Positions 570 to 51,353 of a DNA stretch of 64,000 nucleotides are shown here, piece by piece. The first letter of the stretch is position 1, and every line of letters begins with the position of its first letter. Below the pieces are notes generated by a model. That model worked only from the letters and a program-made list of their open reading frames with translations, had not been told where the DNA came from and ran no database searches. Origin of the DNA: an uncultured Oscillospiraceae bacterium (GTDB lineage Bacteria; Bacillota; Clostridia; Oscillospirales; Oscillospiraceae); assembly GCA_947627715.1 (NCBI GenBank), contig CANQXK010000008.1, positions 1-64,000 on the forward strand, given 5' to 3'. The position numbers and the translations under genes were made by a program.

Positions 570-745
570 CTTTTTCGACAAGGGGAACGTGCGGGGAACT
601 CCGCCTGAATTTTGCGAAATTCACGCAGAATTTCCCTGCTGTCGCCCTGCGCGCGCCGCAAGCGGCACACTTGGGCGACAAAAGGGATTTTTTCCAAGGC
701 TCATGTCCTTGGAAAAAATATTTGAATTTGAGTTTTTTGACGATC
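570..745 (+). repeat. Mosaic palindromic intergenic repeat, copy A
   Basis: This non-coding element holds several nested inverted repeats in a fixed order. First comes GGGGAACGTGCGG, then a long palindrome centred on TTTTGCGAAATT, then CCCTGCTGTC, a GC-rich hairpin, GGGCGACAAAAGG and a final stem with arms TTTTTCCAAGG and CCTTGGAAAAA. The same order is found at 25185-25385 and, inverted, at 53395-53530. It is flanked by two near-identical hairpins (517-545 and 748-774), which looks like a duplication of the insertion target. Confidence 0.7.
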
Positions 746-25184: not shown

Positions 25185-25385
25185 AAATGGCTTTGCCATT
25201 TTTCTGCCATGGGGATACGTGCGGAAACGCCCCCTCGAATTCTGCGGAATTCGAGGGGGCGTTTCCTGCTGTCACGCTGCGCGCACACCCTCCGGCCCTG
25301 AGGGCCGGAGGGCGTACACTTGCGCGACAAAAAGTAAAATTTTCAAGGCGCAGGTCCTTGAAAATTTTATTTGATCAGGGGTTTG
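25185..25385 (+). repeat. Mosaic palindromic intergenic repeat, copy B
   Basis: It fills most of the gap between carB and spo0A (25175-25494). It has the same order of parts as copy A (570-745): GATACGTGCGG, a 19-bp-armed palindrome centred on TTCTGCGGAA, CCTGCTGTC, a GC-rich hairpin, GCGACAAAAAG, and a final stem AATTTTCAAGG/CCTTGAAAATT. The palindrome arms differ in sequence but are compensated, so structure rather than sequence is kept. Confidence 0.7.
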
Positions 25386-39513: not shown

Positions 39514-39747
39514 ATGGCCGCAAAGAAACTGACCTTTGAGCAATCCGTGGCGCGCCTTGACGAGATCGTCAAGACGCTGGAGCGGGGCGACAGGCCCCTG
39601 GAGGAGGCGCTGGCCCTCTTTGAGGAGGGGACGGGCCTCATCCGCGCCTGCGGCAAGGTGCTGGACGAGGCGGAGCAGAAGGTGGTCAAGCTCCAGCGGG
39701 GCGCCGGCGGGGAGCCGGAGGAGCGCCCCTTCACGGAGGAAGAGTGA
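39514..39747 (+). CDS. xseB: Exodeoxyribonuclease VII small subunit
   Basis: XseB is the 77-residue helical-hairpin partner of XseA. LTFEQSVARLDEIVKTLERGDRPLEEALALFEEG is the family signature. AAAAGGAGG precedes ATG. The TGA stop overlaps the ispA ATG by one base. Confidence 0.95.
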   Translation: MAAKKLTFEQSVARLDEIVKTLERGDRPLEEALALFEEGTGLIRACGKVLDEAEQKVVKLQRGAGGEPEERPFTEEE

Positions 39748-40619
39748 TGGAGCTTGAAAGAGAGCTTACGTATCTCAGAGCGAAGGTCGAGACGGAGCTT
39801 GAAAGGTGCTTTACAGGCGATAAGCCCTACAGGAGGCTCTCCCAGGCTATGCGCTACTCCCTGCTGGCAGGGGGGAAGCGGATCCGGCCCATCCTGACGC
39901 TGAAGTTCTGCGAGGCCGCCGGGGGGAGTATGGAGAAGGCCATGCCCCTGGCGCTGGCCTGCGAGATGATCCACACCTACTCCCTCATCCACGACGACCT
40001 GCCGGAGATGGACAACGATGACCTGCGCCGGGGCAAGCCCACCAACCACCGGGTCTTCGGCGCGGGCAGGGCCGTGGTGGCCGGGGACGCCCTCCAGGCG
40101 GCGGCCTTTGAGACGGCGCTGTCGGCCCCCTTCCCGCCGGAGAGGACGGTGGCCGCCGCGGCGTACCTGGCCTCCTGCGCGGGGCTGAACGGGATGTGCG
40201 GCGGGCAGGAGCTGGACACGGCGGAGGAGTCCGACCGCTCCGAGGCGGGCCTTACCCTCATCAACGACCTGAAGACCGGGGCGATGCTCCGGGCGGCCTG
40301 CGTCCTGGGCGTCATCGCCGCAGGCGGGGACGGCGGGGCCAGAAGCGCCGCCGAGGCGTACGGCCTCCATCTGGCCAGGGCCTTCCAGATCCGGGACGAC
40401 ATCCTGGACATCATCTCCACCGAGGCCGAGCTTGGCAAGCCCATCGGCTCGGACGAGGCCAACAGCAAGCCCACCTACGCCTCCCTCCTGGGGGTGGAGG
40501 CGGCGGAGGCCGTGGTGAGGCGCGAGACCCAAAGGGCGAAAAGCGCGGTGCGCGGGGCGTTCCCGGACACGGCGTTTTTTGAGGAGCTGGCCGACAGGCT
40601 GGCGGAAAGAAGGTCCTGA
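39747..40619 (+). CDS. ispA: Farnesyl/geranyl diphosphate synthase (short-chain polyprenyl synthase)
   Basis: IspA condenses isopentenyl and allylic diphosphates, feeding isoprenoid and cell-wall carrier synthesis. The 290 residues have the first Asp-rich motif HDDLPEMDNDDLRRG, the second QIRDDILD, and GGKRIRPIL near the N-terminus. The insertion between the Asp residues of the first motif is typical of bacterial type II FPP synthases. It follows xseB by translational coupling and precedes the structured RNA, oapA and dxs. Confidence 0.94.
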   Translation: MELERELTYLRAKVETELERCFTGDKPYRRLSQAMRYSLLAGGKRIRPILTLKFCEAAGGSMEKAMPLALACEMIHTYSLIHDDLPEMDNDDLRRGKPTNHRVFGAGRAVVAGDALQAAAFETALSAPFPPERTVAAAAYLASCAGLNGMCGGQELDTAEESDRSEAGLTLINDLKTGAMLRAACVLGVIAAGGDGGARSAAEAYGLHLARAFQIRDDILDIISTEAELGKPIGSDEANSKPTYASLLGVEAAEAVVRRETQRAKSAVRGAFPDTAFFEELADRLAERRS

Positions 40620-40655: not shown

Positions 40656-40684
40656 TTGAAAACGGCGCGGGGATATTGTATAAT
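40656..40684 (+). promoter_or_regulatory. Consensus promoter of the OLE-like RNA
   Basis: TTGAAA, 17 bp, TATAAT. The expected start near 40691 coincides with the first bases of the closing helix of the structured RNA. Confidence 0.85.
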
Positions 40685-40690
40685 GAAAGC

Positions 40691-41340
40691 TCAGCGGCGC
40701 AGTATCCTAGTCGAAGCGGATGTCTCCTAAGAAGGGCCTAAAAATCCTTTGAAGGGCACATCGTTGAAGCCTCTTGTGTCTGCTTGGAACGCCCAGTTCC
40801 GGGTGGGTGCTGGAGGGAGGCGCAAATTGCGTCTGCATCTTCAGGGCGACCGCCAATGGCATGACGGCCCCGACCCTGCTGGTGTGGAGACCCGGCTTCG
40901 TGGTCAGGCGTACTCCCTTTCGCGGTACGCGACCTGATTACGTCCCGGGGTTTAAACCTGTATTGCGGTGCGACTTAATGGAAGAGACTTATTGACTCAA
41001 CCTGTGCTGTGTGCAGAGTAGCCTGCCTTGAGTGGGTCTTGCGGATAGGGGAGCTACGCGCACAGCGCCCCGGCCAGGGCGCTGTGCGATATCCTCTTGA
41101 AATATTTCCTGCAAAAGAGGCTAAAGAGACAGTTTGCTTCGTCATGGAAAACATCTAGGCTGTCAGACGGGCGAACAGGGGATTGCAGTGCGGTCTCAGT
41201 GGCGATCGGGTGGCCGGCAGGGCAACGGCCGGAACGGAGCTTTAATGGGAAACCGCCTTCACGGCAACGGAAGGCAGCGCCGGGGGAAAACCGACCCGAC
41301 CTAAGCCGCAAGATTAATCCTGTTCGCCGCCGCTGCGTCG
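40691..41340 (+). ncRNA. ole: OLE-like (ornate, large) structured RNA
   Basis: This ~645-nt segment between ispA and oapA has no credible protein frame. Its 5' end CAGCGGCG (40692-40699) is exactly complementary to CGCCGCTG (41328-41335), giving a closing helix that begins one base after the expected transcription start. Further structure includes a perfect 12-bp hairpin at 41059-41088 and a 13-bp helix with a 2-base bulge joining 41170-41184 to 41316-41328. OLE RNA of Bacillus halodurans has a similar length and the same neighbours (ispA, then oapA, then dxs). The class is assigned from synteny, length and folding, not from a covariance search. Confidence 0.8.
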
Positions 41341-41464
41341 TCGTGGAAGCCGCGTTCCTCGCCGCAGGGCGAAAGCTTTCAGCTCCCGCCCCACGGCTCA
41401 CACGCTGGCTTCACTCCTCCTTTCAAATCACGACCCACTGCGTTGGGCTCGTGATTTGTGAAAA

Positions 41465-41550
41465 AAGGAATATTTGATTTTTAAAACAGGGGAACGTGCG
41501 AGGGATTTTTTTCAAGGCACAGGTGCTTGAAAAAAATATTGGATATTAGA
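41465..41550 (+). repeat. Mosaic palindromic repeat, partial copy C
   Basis: GGGGAACGTGCG and a final stem TTTTTTTCAAGGCAC...GTGCTTGAAAAAAA match both ends of copies A and B; the central palindrome is missing. It lies between the OLE-like RNA and oapA. A hairpin with arms CAAATCACGA/TCGTGATTTG (41426-41456) stands just before it. The remainder of 41341-41579 shows nothing else I can assign. Confidence 0.55.
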
Positions 41551-41579
41551 TTTTTTAAATCGGGAATATGGAACAGAAA

Positions 41580-41604
41580 TTGCCGCGGAGCGGCAAGTTT
41601 TTTT
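41580..41604 (+). terminator. Intrinsic terminator before oapA
   Basis: TTGCCGC and GCGGCAA form a stem with a 3-base loop, followed by GTTTTTTT. It could end transcripts from the OLE promoter, with partial read-through into oapA-dxs. Confidence 0.75.
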
Positions 41605-41618
41605 AAAAAGGGTTTTGT

Positions 41619-42158
41619 ATGAAGCGAAAGTCAAACATCAGGTGGATCGTTGAAATCGTCCTTATTTCGCTGACCATGTCCGTGACGTTCTCCTTTGTGT
41701 CCTCGGAGATCCTGGACGGGGCGGGGTACGTGGTGGCGTTTGTGCTGCTGCTGGCCTTTATCGCCCTGGGCGTCGTCTTCGACGTCATCGGCGTGGCGGT
41801 CACCTCCGCCACGGAGACGCCGTTTCACGCCATGGCCTCCCACAAGGAGCGGGGCGCCAGGGAGGCGCTGAAGCTCCTGCGCAAGTCCGACCGCGTCAGC
41901 TCCATCTGCAACGACGTGGTGGGCGACATCTCCGGGATCATCTCAGGCGCCACGGCCGCCGCCATCGCCGGGAACCTCACCAGGGACCTTGACGTGAGCA
42001 TGGTGGTGATGTCCCTGCTGGTGACGGGGGTGGTGTCGGGCCTCACCATCGGAGGCAAGGCCGTGGGCAAGACCATCGCCATCAACAAAAACACACAGAT
42101 CATCTTCGCGGTGGGAAAGCTCATGTCCTTCCTGCCCCATCTGAAGAAGAAAAAATAA
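41619..42158 (+). CDS. oapA: OLE-associated membrane protein OapA
   Basis: This 179-residue protein has four predicted membrane segments: about 9-29 (IVEIVLISLTMSVTFSFVSS), 36-58 (YVVAFVLLLAFIALGVVFDVIGV), 100-122 and 126-150. Between the pairs lies a polar loop with ATETPFHAMASHKERGA and LRKSDRVSSICNDVVGDISG. It fits OapA, the membrane partner of OLE RNA, in size, topology and its fixed place between the RNA and dxs. OapA is implicated in membrane localisation of OLE RNA and in stress or Mg responses. The assignment rests partly on the adjacent RNA. Confidence 0.82.
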   Translation: MKRKSNIRWIVEIVLISLTMSVTFSFVSSEILDGAGYVVAFVLLLAFIALGVVFDVIGVAVTSATETPFHAMASHKERGAREALKLLRKSDRVSSICNDVVGDISGIISGATAAAIAGNLTRDLDVSMVVMSLLVTGVVSGLTIGGKAVGKTIAINKNTQIIFAVGKLMSFLPHLKKKK

Positions 42159-42170
42159 CGGAGTTTTTTT

Positions 42171-44057
42171 GTGAGCATACTTGAGACCATATCCTCCCCG
42201 GAGGACATAAAAAAACTGGGAGAGGCGGAGCTTTCGGAGCTTTGCCGGGAGGTGCGCGCCTTTTTGGTGGAGTCCACGTCAAAAACCGGGGGTCACCTCT
42301 CCTCCAATCTCGGCGTGGTGGAGCTGACGGTGGCGATCCACCGGGTATTTGACACCTCCAGGGACAGGCTCCTTTTCGACGTGGGGCATCAGAGCTACGT
42401 CCACAAGATCTTGACGGGGCGGCGGGAGCAGTTCGGCTCCCTGCGCGCCCTGGGGGGGCTGTCGGGTTTTCCCAAGCCGGCGGAGTCGGTACACGACGCC
42501 TTTGTGGCGGGGCACGCCTCCTCCGCCGTCTCCACGGCCCTGGGGATGGCGCGTGCCCGCACCCTGCTGGGGGAGACCTACAACGTCATCGCCGTGGTGG
42601 GCGACGGGGCGCTGACCGGCGGCCTCACTTACGAGGGGCTTTGCGACGCCGGGGACAGCGACGAACCCTTGATCGTCATTCTCAACGACAACGGTATGTC
42701 CATCAACGAGAATGTGGGCGCGATGGCCCGGTATCTGGCCCGGAAGCGCCTGCGCCACGGGTACATCGCCTTTAAAAACTGGTACAGGCGCTTCACGAAG
42801 CGTTTCCCCGGCGGCCAGTGGCTCTACAACGTCTCCCACAGGCTCAAGCAGGCGGTGAAGGAGGCCATTTTCAACTGCTCCATGTTTGAGGACATGGGCT
42901 TCACCTACATAGGGCCGGTGGACGGGCACAACCTCAAGCAGCTGACGGCGGCCCTGAAGATCGCGCGGGACACCCAGGGACCGGCACTGGTACACGTCAT
43001 CACAAAAAAAGGAAAGGGCTACCAGTTTGCCGAGGCGAACCCCGACGCTTTCCACGGGGTGAAGAGCTTCGACCCGGAGACCGGCGTGATCCCCGCCTCC
43101 GGCGAGTGCTTCTCCGCCGTGTTCGGGGAGGAGCTGTGCCGCCTGGCGGGGGAGGACGGGCGCGTCCTTGCCGTCACCGCCGCCATGCCCTCCGGCACGG
43201 GGCTGACGGAATTTGCCCGGACATACCCCCGGCGGTTTTTTGACGTGGGCATCTGCGAGGGCCACGCGGCCTCCATGGCCGGCGGCGCGGCGCACCAGGG
43301 GTGCGTCCCCGTCTTTGCGGTGTACTCCACCTTTTTGCAGAGGAGCTACGATATGCTCCTCCAGGATGTCTGCCTGGGGAACGAGCACGTGGTGCTGGCG
43401 GTGGACCGGGCGGGCCTCTCCGGCGAGGACGGGGAGACCCATCAGGGGTCCATGGACGTGAGCTTCCTCACCTCCATGCCCCACATGACTGTGTGGTCCC
43501 CGGCCAGCTTTGCCGAGCTGCGGGATATGCTCCGCCGCGCCGTTCAGGAGGAGGCGGGGCCTGTGGCCGTCCGCTACCCCAAGGGGGCGGAGGGGAGGTA
43601 CACCGCAGGGGGCGCCGCCCCGGCGGTGAGGCTCCGGGAGGGCGGCGGCTTCACCCTGGTCACCTACGGCATCAGCGTCAACACCGCCCTGGAGGCGGCG
43701 GAGACGCTCCGGGAGCGGGGCATTTTTGTGGACCTTATCAAGCTTGGGCGCATCAAGCCCCTGGACCTGGGCCTTGTGGAGGATTCGGTCCGGCGCACGG
43801 GACGGCTCTTGGTGCTGGAGGAGGCCGTGGCGGAGGGCTGTATCGGCCAGCAGCTGGCGGCGGCCCTTGAGGGGCGGGGCGTTCCGCTGAGGGCGCTGAT
43901 CTTAAAGAATCTGGGCGACCGCTTCATCCCCCACGGCAGCGTGGAGGAGCTGCGGCGGCTGTGCGGCATCGACGCCGGGAGCGTGGCGGAGGCCGTCGTG
44001 GCGAATTTGGGGAGCATTTCCGATACGGGGGACGCAGATGGCAAAGACGAGACTTGA
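42171..44057 (+). CDS. dxs: 1-deoxy-D-xylulose-5-phosphate synthase
   Basis: Dxs joins pyruvate and glyceraldehyde 3-phosphate in the first step of the non-mevalonate isoprenoid pathway. The 628 residues show GGHLSSNLGVVELTVAIHRVFD, the TPP motif GDGALTGGLTYEGL...ILNDNGMSINENVG, the central VGICEGHAASMAGGAA and AVDRAGLSGEDGETHQGSMD. The start is GTG with GGAG 8 bp upstream. It works in the same pathway as ispA across the OLE/oapA interval. Its end overlaps tlyA by 20 bp. Confidence 0.96.
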   Translation: MSILETISSPEDIKKLGEAELSELCREVRAFLVESTSKTGGHLSSNLGVVELTVAIHRVFDTSRDRLLFDVGHQSYVHKILTGRREQFGSLRALGGLSGFPKPAESVHDAFVAGHASSAVSTALGMARARTLLGETYNVIAVVGDGALTGGLTYEGLCDAGDSDEPLIVILNDNGMSINENVGAMARYLARKRLRHGYIAFKNWYRRFTKRFPGGQWLYNVSHRLKQAVKEAIFNCSMFEDMGFTYIGPVDGHNLKQLTAALKIARDTQGPALVHVITKKGKGYQFAEANPDAFHGVKSFDPETGVIPASGECFSAVFGEELCRLAGEDGRVLAVTAAMPSGTGLTEFARTYPRRFFDVGICEGHAASMAGGAAHQGCVPVFAVYSTFLQRSYDMLLQDVCLGNEHVVLAVDRAGLSGEDGETHQGSMDVSFLTSMPHMTVWSPASFAELRDMLRRAVQEEAGPVAVRYPKGAEGRYTAGGAAPAVRLREGGGFTLVTYGISVNTALEAAETLRERGIFVDLIKLGRIKPLDLGLVEDSVRRTGRLLVLEEAVAEGCIGQQLAAALEGRGVPLRALILKNLGDRFIPHGSVEELRRLCGIDAGSVAEAVVANLGSISDTGDADGKDET

Positions 44058-49498: not shown

Positions 49499-49760
49499 GT
49501 CAACGCGAGGAAGGGCGCAAGTAGCCCGGCTTTTTTCCGCACAGAGAGGTCCCGGCTGGTGGAAGGGACCGGGGGGAGCCGGCGCGAATACGGCCCGGAG
49601 CGGCGCACCGAACGCTTTTGCAAGTAGGCTGCGACGGGTGCGCCCGATAGAGCGCGTGGAGTTTCATACTCCGTGAGGCGGCGGCCGCGAGGACGCCGCG
49701 ACCAGAGGTGGTACCGCGTCAAGACGCCCTCTGTTCGGTTTTTCCGGGCAGGGGGCTTGT
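49499..49760 (+). promoter_or_regulatory. Tyrosine-specific T-box riboswitch
   Basis: The leader has a GC-rich stem I with the internal motif GAATACGG holding a UAC (Tyr) specifier at 49589-49591. The T-box sequence AGAGGTGGTACCGCG is at 49704-49718, and a 13-bp terminator (49726-49738 with 49744-49756) ends in TTGTTGTTT. Uncharged tRNA-Tyr should pair with the TGG bulge (49709-49711) and block termination. Regulated genes are the zinc-ribbon frame and tyrS. Confidence 0.93.
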
Positions 49761-50132: not shown

Positions 50133-51353
50133 ATGGAGATTTATGAGGAGCTGGTGGCCCGCGGGCTTATCGCCCAGGTCACCGACGAGACGGAAATTCG
50201 CAAGATGATCAACGCCGGAAAGGCCACCTTTTATATCGGCTTTGACTGCACGGCGGACAGCCTCACGGCGGGGCATTTCATGGCGCTGACGCTGATGAAG
50301 CGCCTCCAGATGGCGGGGAACCGCCCCATCGCCCTCATCGGCGGCGGCACCACCATGATCGGCGACCCCTCCGGGCGCTCGGATATGCGGAAAATGCTCA
50401 CCCGCGAGGACATCGACCACAACGCCACCTGCTTCAAGCGCCAGATGGAGCGGTTTATCGAGTTCGGCGAGGGCAAGGCCCAGATGGTGAACAACGCCGA
50501 CTGGCTCTTAAACCTCAACTATGTGGAGCTTCTGCGGGAGGTGGGCGCGTGCTTCTCCGTGAACAATATGCTCCGGGCCGAGTGCTATAAGCAGCGCATG
50601 GAGAAGGGCCTGTCGTTCTTGGAGTTCAACTACATGATCATGCAGTCCTACGACTTCTACCACCTCTTCCAGCACTACGGGTGCAATATGCAGTTCGGCG
50701 GCAACGACCAGTGGTCCAACATGATCGGCGGCACCGAGCTTATACGGCGCAAGCTGGGGCGCGACGCCCACGCCATGACCATCACGCTCCTGACGGATTC
50801 CAACGGCAACAAGATGGGCAAGACCGCCGGGAACGCCGTGTGGCTGGACCCCAACAAGACCAGCCCCTACGACTTCTACCAGTACTGGCGCAACGTGGGC
50901 GACGCGGACGTGGTGAAGTGCCTGAAGATGCTGACCTTCCTGCCCCTGGACGAGATCGCGGAGATGGAGACGTGGCAGGACAGCCGCATCAACCGCGCCA
51001 AGGAGATCCTGGCCTTTGAGCTTACGAAGCTGGTCCACGGCCAGGAGGAGGCCGAAAAGGCCCAGCAGAGCGCCCGCGCCCTCTTCGGCGGCGGGGACTC
51101 CGGGGAGATGCCCACCGTGGAGCTGACGGAGGCCGACCTTGCCGGCAGCGGGGCGGACATCATGACGCTTTTGGTGAAGGCGGGGCTTGTGGCCTCCAAA
51201 TCCGAGGCACGGCGGAACATCCAGCAGGGCGGCGTCACGGCCAACGATGAGAAGGTCGCCGACATCGGCAAGACCTTCACCGCCGGGGAACTCAAGGACG
51301 GCGTGGTTTTGAGGCGCGGCAAGAAGAGCTTTATGAAGGTGATCTTAAAGTGA
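50133..51353 (+). CDS. tyrS: Tyrosyl-tRNA synthetase
   Basis: TyrS charges tRNA-Tyr. The 406 residues have the class I nucleotide-binding region (FYIGFDCTADSLTAGHFMAL, in place of HIGH), QFGGNDQWSNMIGG, and the KMSKS loop written KMGKT. An S4 domain (ASKSEARRNIQQGGVTANDEKV) ends the protein. It belongs to the TyrRS branch with YIGFD and KMGKT. AAGGAG is 6 bp before ATG. Confidence 0.96.
   Translation: MEIYEELVARGLIAQVTDETEIRKMINAGKATFYIGFDCTADSLTAGHFMALTLMKRLQMAGNRPIALIGGGTTMIGDPSGRSDMRKMLTREDIDHNATCFKRQMERFIEFGEGKAQMVNNADWLLNLNYVELLREVGACFSVNNMLRAECYKQRMEKGLSFLEFNYMIMQSYDFYHLFQHYGCNMQFGGNDQWSNMIGGTELIRRKLGRDAHAMTITLLTDSNGNKMGKTAGNAVWLDPNKTSPYDFYQYWRNVGDADVVKCLKMLTFLPLDEIAEMETWQDSRINRAKEILAFELTKLVHGQEEAEKAQQSARALFGGGDSGEMPTVELTEADLAGSGADIMTLLVKAGLVASKSEARRNIQQGGVTANDEKVADIGKTFTAGELKDGVVLRRGKKSFMKVILK

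Follow-up and report, generated by a model that had tools for sequence, protein, structure and literature searches.

An OLE RNA-OapA locus of an uncultured Oscillospiraceae-like bacterium and its comparative setting within one genus

OLE is among the largest structured bacterial RNAs with an unsolved biochemical function. Its mechanism and the stress phenotypes connected with it were described in other species (PMC12265935, PMC12286853, PMC9723947, PMC12054373, PMC10898510). A 2024 survey of GTDB R214 documented 2,822 OLE-bearing genomes of Bacillota, including the gut clades TANB77 and RF39, with frequencies of about 60% for OapB and about 45% for OapC; an anticorrelation of OLE with MpfA across Bacillota was published there as well (PMC11332333). 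According to a published idea, OLE together with OapA does part of the Mg2+ work of MpfA. No paper combining 'OLE RNA' with 'Oscillospiraceae' was found in the literature searched.

Here we describe an OLE locus in a stretch of 64,000 nt (the window) from an uncultured Oscillospiraceae bacterium. A first-pass annotation of the letters alone had proposed an OLE RNA with OapA and had expected that its presence would widen the physiological context of the RNA. The latter expectation is not supported: OLE had previously been described in gut Bacillota (PMC11332333), and therefore the locus alone widens no known physiological range. The locus itself is ordinary and well preserved, and its interest lies in the comparative setting. 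The genus holds OLE-bearing genomes as well as others in which an MpfA-type protein was found and OLE, OapA and OapB were not, and thus offers a tight comparison for the idea relating OLE-OapA to MpfA.

Identity, borders and structure of the OLE RNA

The Rfam covariance model of OLE is matched over its whole length by 672 nt of the window (E = 1.9e-115, cut-off 50 bits; Table 1), which establishes the proposed identity as a full-length match. It is one of two Rfam matches over cut-off within the 64 kb, and a single OLE copy was found in the genome (2.64 Mb, 100 contigs, 99.6% complete). The synteny described earlier, with the RNA between ispA and a membrane-protein gene followed by dxs, is confirmed by the positions and by the NCBIfam matches of ispA and dxs. 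Farther along the window, an ordinary T-box leader was observed at 49499-49734 (93.5 bits, cut-off 93), and the 406-aa gene downstream of it, at 50133, looks by eye like a tyrosyl-tRNA synthetase.

Table 1. Features of the ole-oapA region, in window coordinates
Feature	Position	Strand	Evidence or remark
ispA-type farnesyl diphosphate synthase, upstream neighbour	39744..40619	+	NCBIfam FPPsyn 290.3 bits, cut-off 275
Sigma-70-like ole promoter, TTGAAA-17-TATAAT	40656..40684	+	11/12 consensus positions
OLE RNA, probable full-length class	40678..41349	+	Rfam RF01071, model 1-616, 400.6 bits
Closing helix P1, 5' strand	40692..40699	+	Covaries with 41328-41335
P4 and A-rich loop	40735..40747	+	Identical 13 letters in 99/107 OLEs
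k-turn, 5' strand: UC, bulge GUU, GA	40761..40767	+	Core C-NNN-GAA in 107/107
P5 loop with GCCCA	40789..40795	+	GCCCA in 99/107 OLEs
P6 loop with UGGC	40853..40860	+	AAUGGC in at least 91/107 OLEs
k-turn, 3' strand: GA then GA	40887..40890	+	GAG[AG]C in 107/107
P9 loop, self-complementary GGCC	41072..41075	+	GGCC in 102/106 distinct rows
P13 end loop	41261..41270	+	CGGCAACG-type loop retained among relatives
Closing helix P1, 3' strand	41328..41335	+	Covaries with 40692-40699
Dispersed repeat directly after OLE	41345..41451	+	Partial copies on contigs C4, C46, C40, C20, 74-83% identical
Spacer hairpin repeat	41501..41556	+	Copies: window 683-737, 25340-25375, contig C16
Terminator-like hairpin and T run ahead of oapA	41580..41603	+	22 nt before oapA
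oapA, 179 aa	41619..42158	+	CNNM 29.1 bits, cut-off 28.4; next to OLE
DxxxD codons (D99 to D103)	41913..41927	+	Both D invariant in 16/16 aligned OapA
dxs, downstream neighbour	42171..44057	+	NCBIfam TIGR00204 652.5 bits, cut-off 465.95

For comparison, 107 OLEs (106 distinct) were aligned with MAFFT and the Rfam structure was overlaid on the window and the other rows. The set comprises 31 related-genome loci, 69 of 80 named loci and seven further stretches; left out were the ten named loci whose OLE is cut or partial and L108, which has no match. Counts over the 107 OLEs are not independent because the two overlapping collections hold some genomes twice.

The complementarity of the two ends, noticed in the first pass, is exact over 8 bp. 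This terminal pairing is unpaired in the Rfam model, yet it covaries: in the 106 distinct rows it is paired in 90.3% of cases, compared with at most 81.1% in 200 shuffles and 25-42% when the partners were slid, and two-sided changes were found in seven of the eight pairs. By position, we assign it to P1 of the published model. The distance from P1 to P1 (40692-41335) is 644 nt and, like the 672-nt span of the covariance model, is consistent with the unit of ~645 nt claimed before; the RNA probably extends from about 40691 to 41335. Covariation among homologous loci, on which the annotation had staked its reading, was found for the whole structure as well. Over the 154 Rfam pairs, 89.4% of the cells of the 106 distinct rows are paired, against a mean of 74.3% in 30 shuffles and 39-47% when the partners were slid by one or two columns, and two-sided changes occur in 118 of the 154 pairs (shuffled mean 92.6). 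The window RNA itself forms 139 standard and 15 non-standard pairs.

The letters of the dimer contacts in P4, P5/P6 and P9 are present in the window OLE. In the published structures the A-rich loop of P4 is a dimer contact, the GCCCA of the P5 loop kisses the UGGC of the P6 loop, and the GGCC of the P9 loop is a self-kissing contact in cryo-EM (PMC12265935, PMC12286853). By analogy, the P5 GCCCA of the window can be expected to be able to kiss its P6 UGGC. Four of the 106 distinct rows depart from GGCC in P9: GTAC and AGCT are self-complementary, ATAC is not, and one row has a gap. The end loop of P13 lies within the region bound by OapB in other species (PMC9723947). Judged by its sequence, the stretch is an intact and ordinary OLE locus of a known family.

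The consensus promoter claimed ahead of the RNA holds with 11 of 12 matches. A survey of promoters used CTAGTC as an anchor, so that the 11 OLEs without it were excluded; at least nine of 12 positions were matched just upstream in 69 of 96 anchored OLEs, compared with four of 412 control windows farther upstream. Between ole and oapA lies a spacer of 269 nt in the window and of 6-384 nt over the loci. The spacer was also considered as a part of OLE, which was rejected since dispersed repeats lie inside it (Table 1); the repeat copy on contig C40 adjoins what by eye appears to be a tRNA gene. Taken in the window alone, the terminator-like hairpin ahead of oapA is not above chance, with two such sites observed in the region for 2.5 expected and a terminator-like hairpin in 14 of 100 shuffles of the spacer. 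Among the 31 related-genome loci, 13 have a similar hairpin at a distance of 20-23 nt from oapA, five have one elsewhere in the spacer, and 13 have none. We infer that the long-spacer lineage would make ole in excess and obtain oapA by read-through.

Instead of an independent RNA, the same arrangement could be read as an oapA-dxs operon with a long leader or attenuator. The RNA directly precedes oapA on one strand, a terminator-like hairpin stands ahead of the oapA start, the gap between OLE and oapA is merely 6-18 nt in several loci, and the ole cluster of H. halodurans was reported to be transcribed as one polycistronic RNA (PMC12265935). This reading is nevertheless very unlikely: a leader is at odds with the full-length OLE match, closing helix P1 included, and with OLE being known in other species as a separate, membrane-bound RNA. 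Moreover, in an unusual locus of Oscillibacter (L139, 561-2888) a frame of 776 aa, apparently a lipoprotein, splits OLE from oapA.

OapA, OapB and the k-turn

The identification of the gene at 41619 as oapA, made earlier from its setting, is substantiated by synteny, by homology (45% identity to the OLE-adjacent protein of Alteribacillus) and by the DxxxD motif, which is distinctive of OapA and missing from CNNM domains (PMC11332333). CNNM is the only Pfam match of the product and is barely over its cut-off, and the OapA profile gave no match at E<=1 against solved structures. By homology, the product of 41619-42158 is OapA. oapA was found downstream of OLE in all 31 related-genome loci, and OLE lies upstream, whole or cut, in 79 of the 80 named OapA loci (the best 80 of 579 records). 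The remaining one, L108 (1-567), has oapA with no OLE in the 567 nt upstream up to the contig end. The best-matching named OapA records among these 80 of 579 come from uncultured Oscillospiraceae, mostly 'Lapin' isolates, a name which we read as rabbit gut, and rumen sets; the list may omit the window's own record.

OapB was at first taken as absent, as a search for KOW domains returned only L24 and NusG, and this was overturned by using the OapB of Alteribacillus as query. A gene of 92 aa directly after map, on contig C22 of the same genome and hence on another contig than ole, encodes OapB; the position after map is common to the window genome and Alteribacillus. Searched against the PDB at E<=10, the own-genome protein matches a single entry, 7k9b (OLE-associated protein B; E = 1.6e-6), which the Alteribacillus query itself matches with E = 8.9e-33.

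OapC was assigned by a rule of our own, applied by hand: an L7Ae match had to score at least 23 bits, start at profile position 9 or beyond and reach at least position 83. No OapC (YbxF-type) was found in the window's genome, where the sole L7Ae-type match is YlxQ between ylxR and infB, and the rule yields no YbxF/OapC-type match in any of the 34 genomes from the genus, the window's own among them. Outside the genus, the same rule finds OapC in 40 of 64 OLE-bearing genomes; the tally includes 50 of the 80 named loci (best 80 of 579), the remainder being related genomes. Decay of the k-turn where OapC is missing was considered and rejected. All 107 OLEs, that of the window among them, keep the core intact (C-NNN-GAA with GAG[AG]C), and the differences outside the genus are not significant: 29 of 40 OapC-positive and 14 of 24 OapC-negative genomes retain an intact second C-helix pair (p = 0.28), and the GAU bulge is seen in 31 of the former 40 and 15 of the latter 24 (p = 0.25). 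The bulge in the 24 OLEs of the window's genus is GUU in 17, UAU in six and GAU in one; the genus gives no usable signal on k-turn against OapC because it is one lineage.

YlxQ reportedly binds k-turns, as a 2012 paper by Baird et al. indicates in its title. In three OLE RNA papers that mention YlxQ, the name comes from citing that work. As the k-turn forms in protein-free cryo-EM as well (PMC12286853), its retention neither needs nor proves a protein partner. YlxQ would be the likeliest k-turn partner, if any exists, and is put forward as a candidate. G045 (L015), a 98% complete genome, has OLE, OapA and OapB, but a search at E<=1 matched no L7Ae-type protein there, be it OapC or YlxQ, which speaks against a general need for an L7Ae-type partner.

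The window RNA might also be a remnant or reduced variant of OLE without function, a reading to which we give hardly any credence. The 15 non-standard pairs of 154, the failure to find OapC in the genome and the missing 3' U run of the family consensus would fit it. They are outweighed by the 400.6 bits over all 616 positions, to be set beside the 390 which the survey gives for full-length OLE under a different model (PMC11332333), by the preserved loops and k-turn core, and by intact OapA and OapB.

Contig ends and the distribution of OLE and MpfA-type proteins

Scoring the presence of OLE in metagenome draft genomes is affected by an assembly effect. In ten of the 80 named loci (best 80 of 579; L069, L070, L071, L104, L108, L110, L111, L113, L120 and L140), a contig ends within 720 nt upstream of oapA, in the OLE region, and in none of the 80 within 720 nt downstream. 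Counting 3 kb to both sides, these best 80 of 579 have 28 contig ends, ten of which fall within the upstream 720 nt (binomial p = 0.001); in one of the ten, L108, no OLE was found. OLE is split over two contigs in G030 (L224, L225), with an exact overlap of 77 nt, and in G032 (L226, L227), with 51 nt. Such exact overlaps are left where a de Bruijn assembly branches. Presumably, species living together have stretches of OLE in common, as is the case for rRNA. Because contig ends and OLE coincide in assemblies from metagenomes, a draft genome cannot safely be scored as lacking OLE. An apparently missing or broken OLE in five members of the genus (G001, G003, G017, G030, G032) was accordingly dismissed, as their contigs end inside OLE.

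Among 60 genomes, own included, OLE and OapA were both found in 43 and neither in 17. The raw matches were 41 for the OLE model and 44 for OapA. One OapA match (G058) was dropped as it lies inside a 478-aa frame of a CorC_HlyC protein, and G001 and G003, which have OapA and no OLE family match, were counted among the 43 with both, the 3' part of OLE sitting at a contig end in each. CorC_HlyC, marking MpfA-type proteins, is over cut-off in one of 43 OLE-bearing and 15 of 17 OLE-less genomes (Fisher p = 4e-11, kinship ignored). CorC_HlyC alone was searched in all 60 genomes, so that CNNM-CBS proteins without it are uncounted. The two OLE-less genomes without it are G027 (74% complete) and G040 (55%); the match in G038 is below cut-off, and the window's genome has none at E<=0.001. 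In the four proteins checked (G007, G013, G015, G023), CNNM, CBS and CorC_HlyC domains are all present, while G009 has its CorC_HlyC match in a frame of 423 aa beside a CNNM-CBS gene. The lone OLE-bearing genome with CorC_HlyC over cut-off is G007, the only one of 60 with both systems: it carries a full-length OLE-OapA (L027) and an MpfA-type gene (L267, 4402-5727), and therefore the two are not strictly exclusive.

Within the window's genus, CorC_HlyC was found in one of 29 OLE-bearing and four of five OLE-less genomes (p = 5e-4, kinship ignored), and OapB in 26 of 29 and none of five (p = 2e-4, kinship ignored). The published anticorrelation therefore extends inside one genus, which is what is newly added here; the word 'genus' does not occur in PMC11332333. 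These patterns suggest a natural swap of OLE for a magnesium-transporter-like protein among relatives.

Two trees bear on the position of the OLE-less members. In a tree of NusA and InfB (31 rows), G015 and G023 pair (95/97) within the genus clade (100/99), with G015 represented by only 45% of the columns, and the branch placing them among OLE-bearing members is weak (87/75). G027, in which both systems are missing, adjoins an OLE-bearing genome in this tree and is therefore probably a gap. In a CTP-synthase tree (15 rows), G013 joins G015 and G023 (98/96), and this trio groups with eight OLE-bearing members of the genus (97/95). G020, also OLE-bearing, falls outside on a long branch, so that nesting is likely, not firm. 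G007 lies near the trio, the branching order being without support. Three of the five OLE-less members thus form one clade inside the genus.

The exchange within the genus might be an artefact of incomplete or mis-binned draft genomes, which we regard as doubtful, though well short of negligible. Completeness is 72-87% for the five members of the genus without OLE, the trio may represent a single event, and the branch nesting G015 and G023 is weak, as noted. On the other hand, neither OLE nor OapA nor OapB was detected in any of the five, and oapB and ole lie on separate contigs in the window genome; four of the five have MpfA-type proteins, with the three domains confirmed in G013, G015 and G023. 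Moreover, 11 of 12 OLE-less genomes outside the genus also have CorC_HlyC, the eleven being 93-100% complete, and the survey reports the same pattern across Bacillota (PMC11332333).

Taken as a real exchange, the pattern leads to a tentative proposal, rather unlikely in all its parts together: the genus would run the OLE particle without OapC and with YlxQ on the k-turn, a subclade would have swapped OLE, OapA and OapB for an MpfA-type transporter, and G007 would be a possible intermediate. If this is true, the function of OLE could be read by comparing sister species.

Working model and comparison with known systems

We consider it highly likely that an uncultured Oscillospiraceae-like bacterium carries a full-length ole-oapA unit at this locus and that the particle model holds as a whole. 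In this model, the sigma-70-like promoter (40656-40684) would start an OLE RNA of ~645 nt closed by P1, whose 5' domain is predicted to dimerise via the loops of P4, P5/P6 and P9, as in the published structures of relatives. OapA would hold the RNA at the membrane, as work on other species suggests, and OapB, encoded after map on another contig, may bind the P12.2/P13 region. The particle appears to run without OapC in the genus while the k-turn is kept, YlxQ being the likeliest partner, if any. The spacer hairpin may attenuate oapA. By analogy, the particle would most likely serve divalent-metal and stress homeostasis, a role that an MpfA-type transporter may take over in OLE-less relatives.

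Compared with full-length OLE of family RF01071 (H. halodurans, C. acetobutylicum, C. botulinum), the window matches the whole model and shares the loop letters of P4, P5, P6 and P9, the k-turn core, P1 and the downstream oapA. It differs in longer inserts of P7 and P8, in the missing 3' U run, in the 269-nt repeat-bearing spacer before oapA, and in the k-turn bulge, which is GUU here and mostly GAU in OLEs from outside the genus. The anti-Shine-Dalgarno mimic CCUCCU is missing from P6 of the window and was found in P6 of none of 107 OLEs (CCUCC in 12 of 107). This is weak evidence on the interaction of OLE with bS21: OLE mutants with a changed mimic and retained pairing were reported to bind bS21 still (PMC12054373).

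With the known gut OLE group, the window has the gut setting and OLE with OapA in common. In that group, however, parts of P7-P9 are shortened or missing and OapB is largely missing, whereas the window has P7, P8, P9 and OapB. With the Mg2+ transporters MpfA, CorB and CorC (CNNM-CBS-CorC_HlyC), the OapA of the window shares the CNNM-type membrane domain; unlike them, it is a protein of 179 aa with CNNM as its only Pfam match, and it carries DxxxD.
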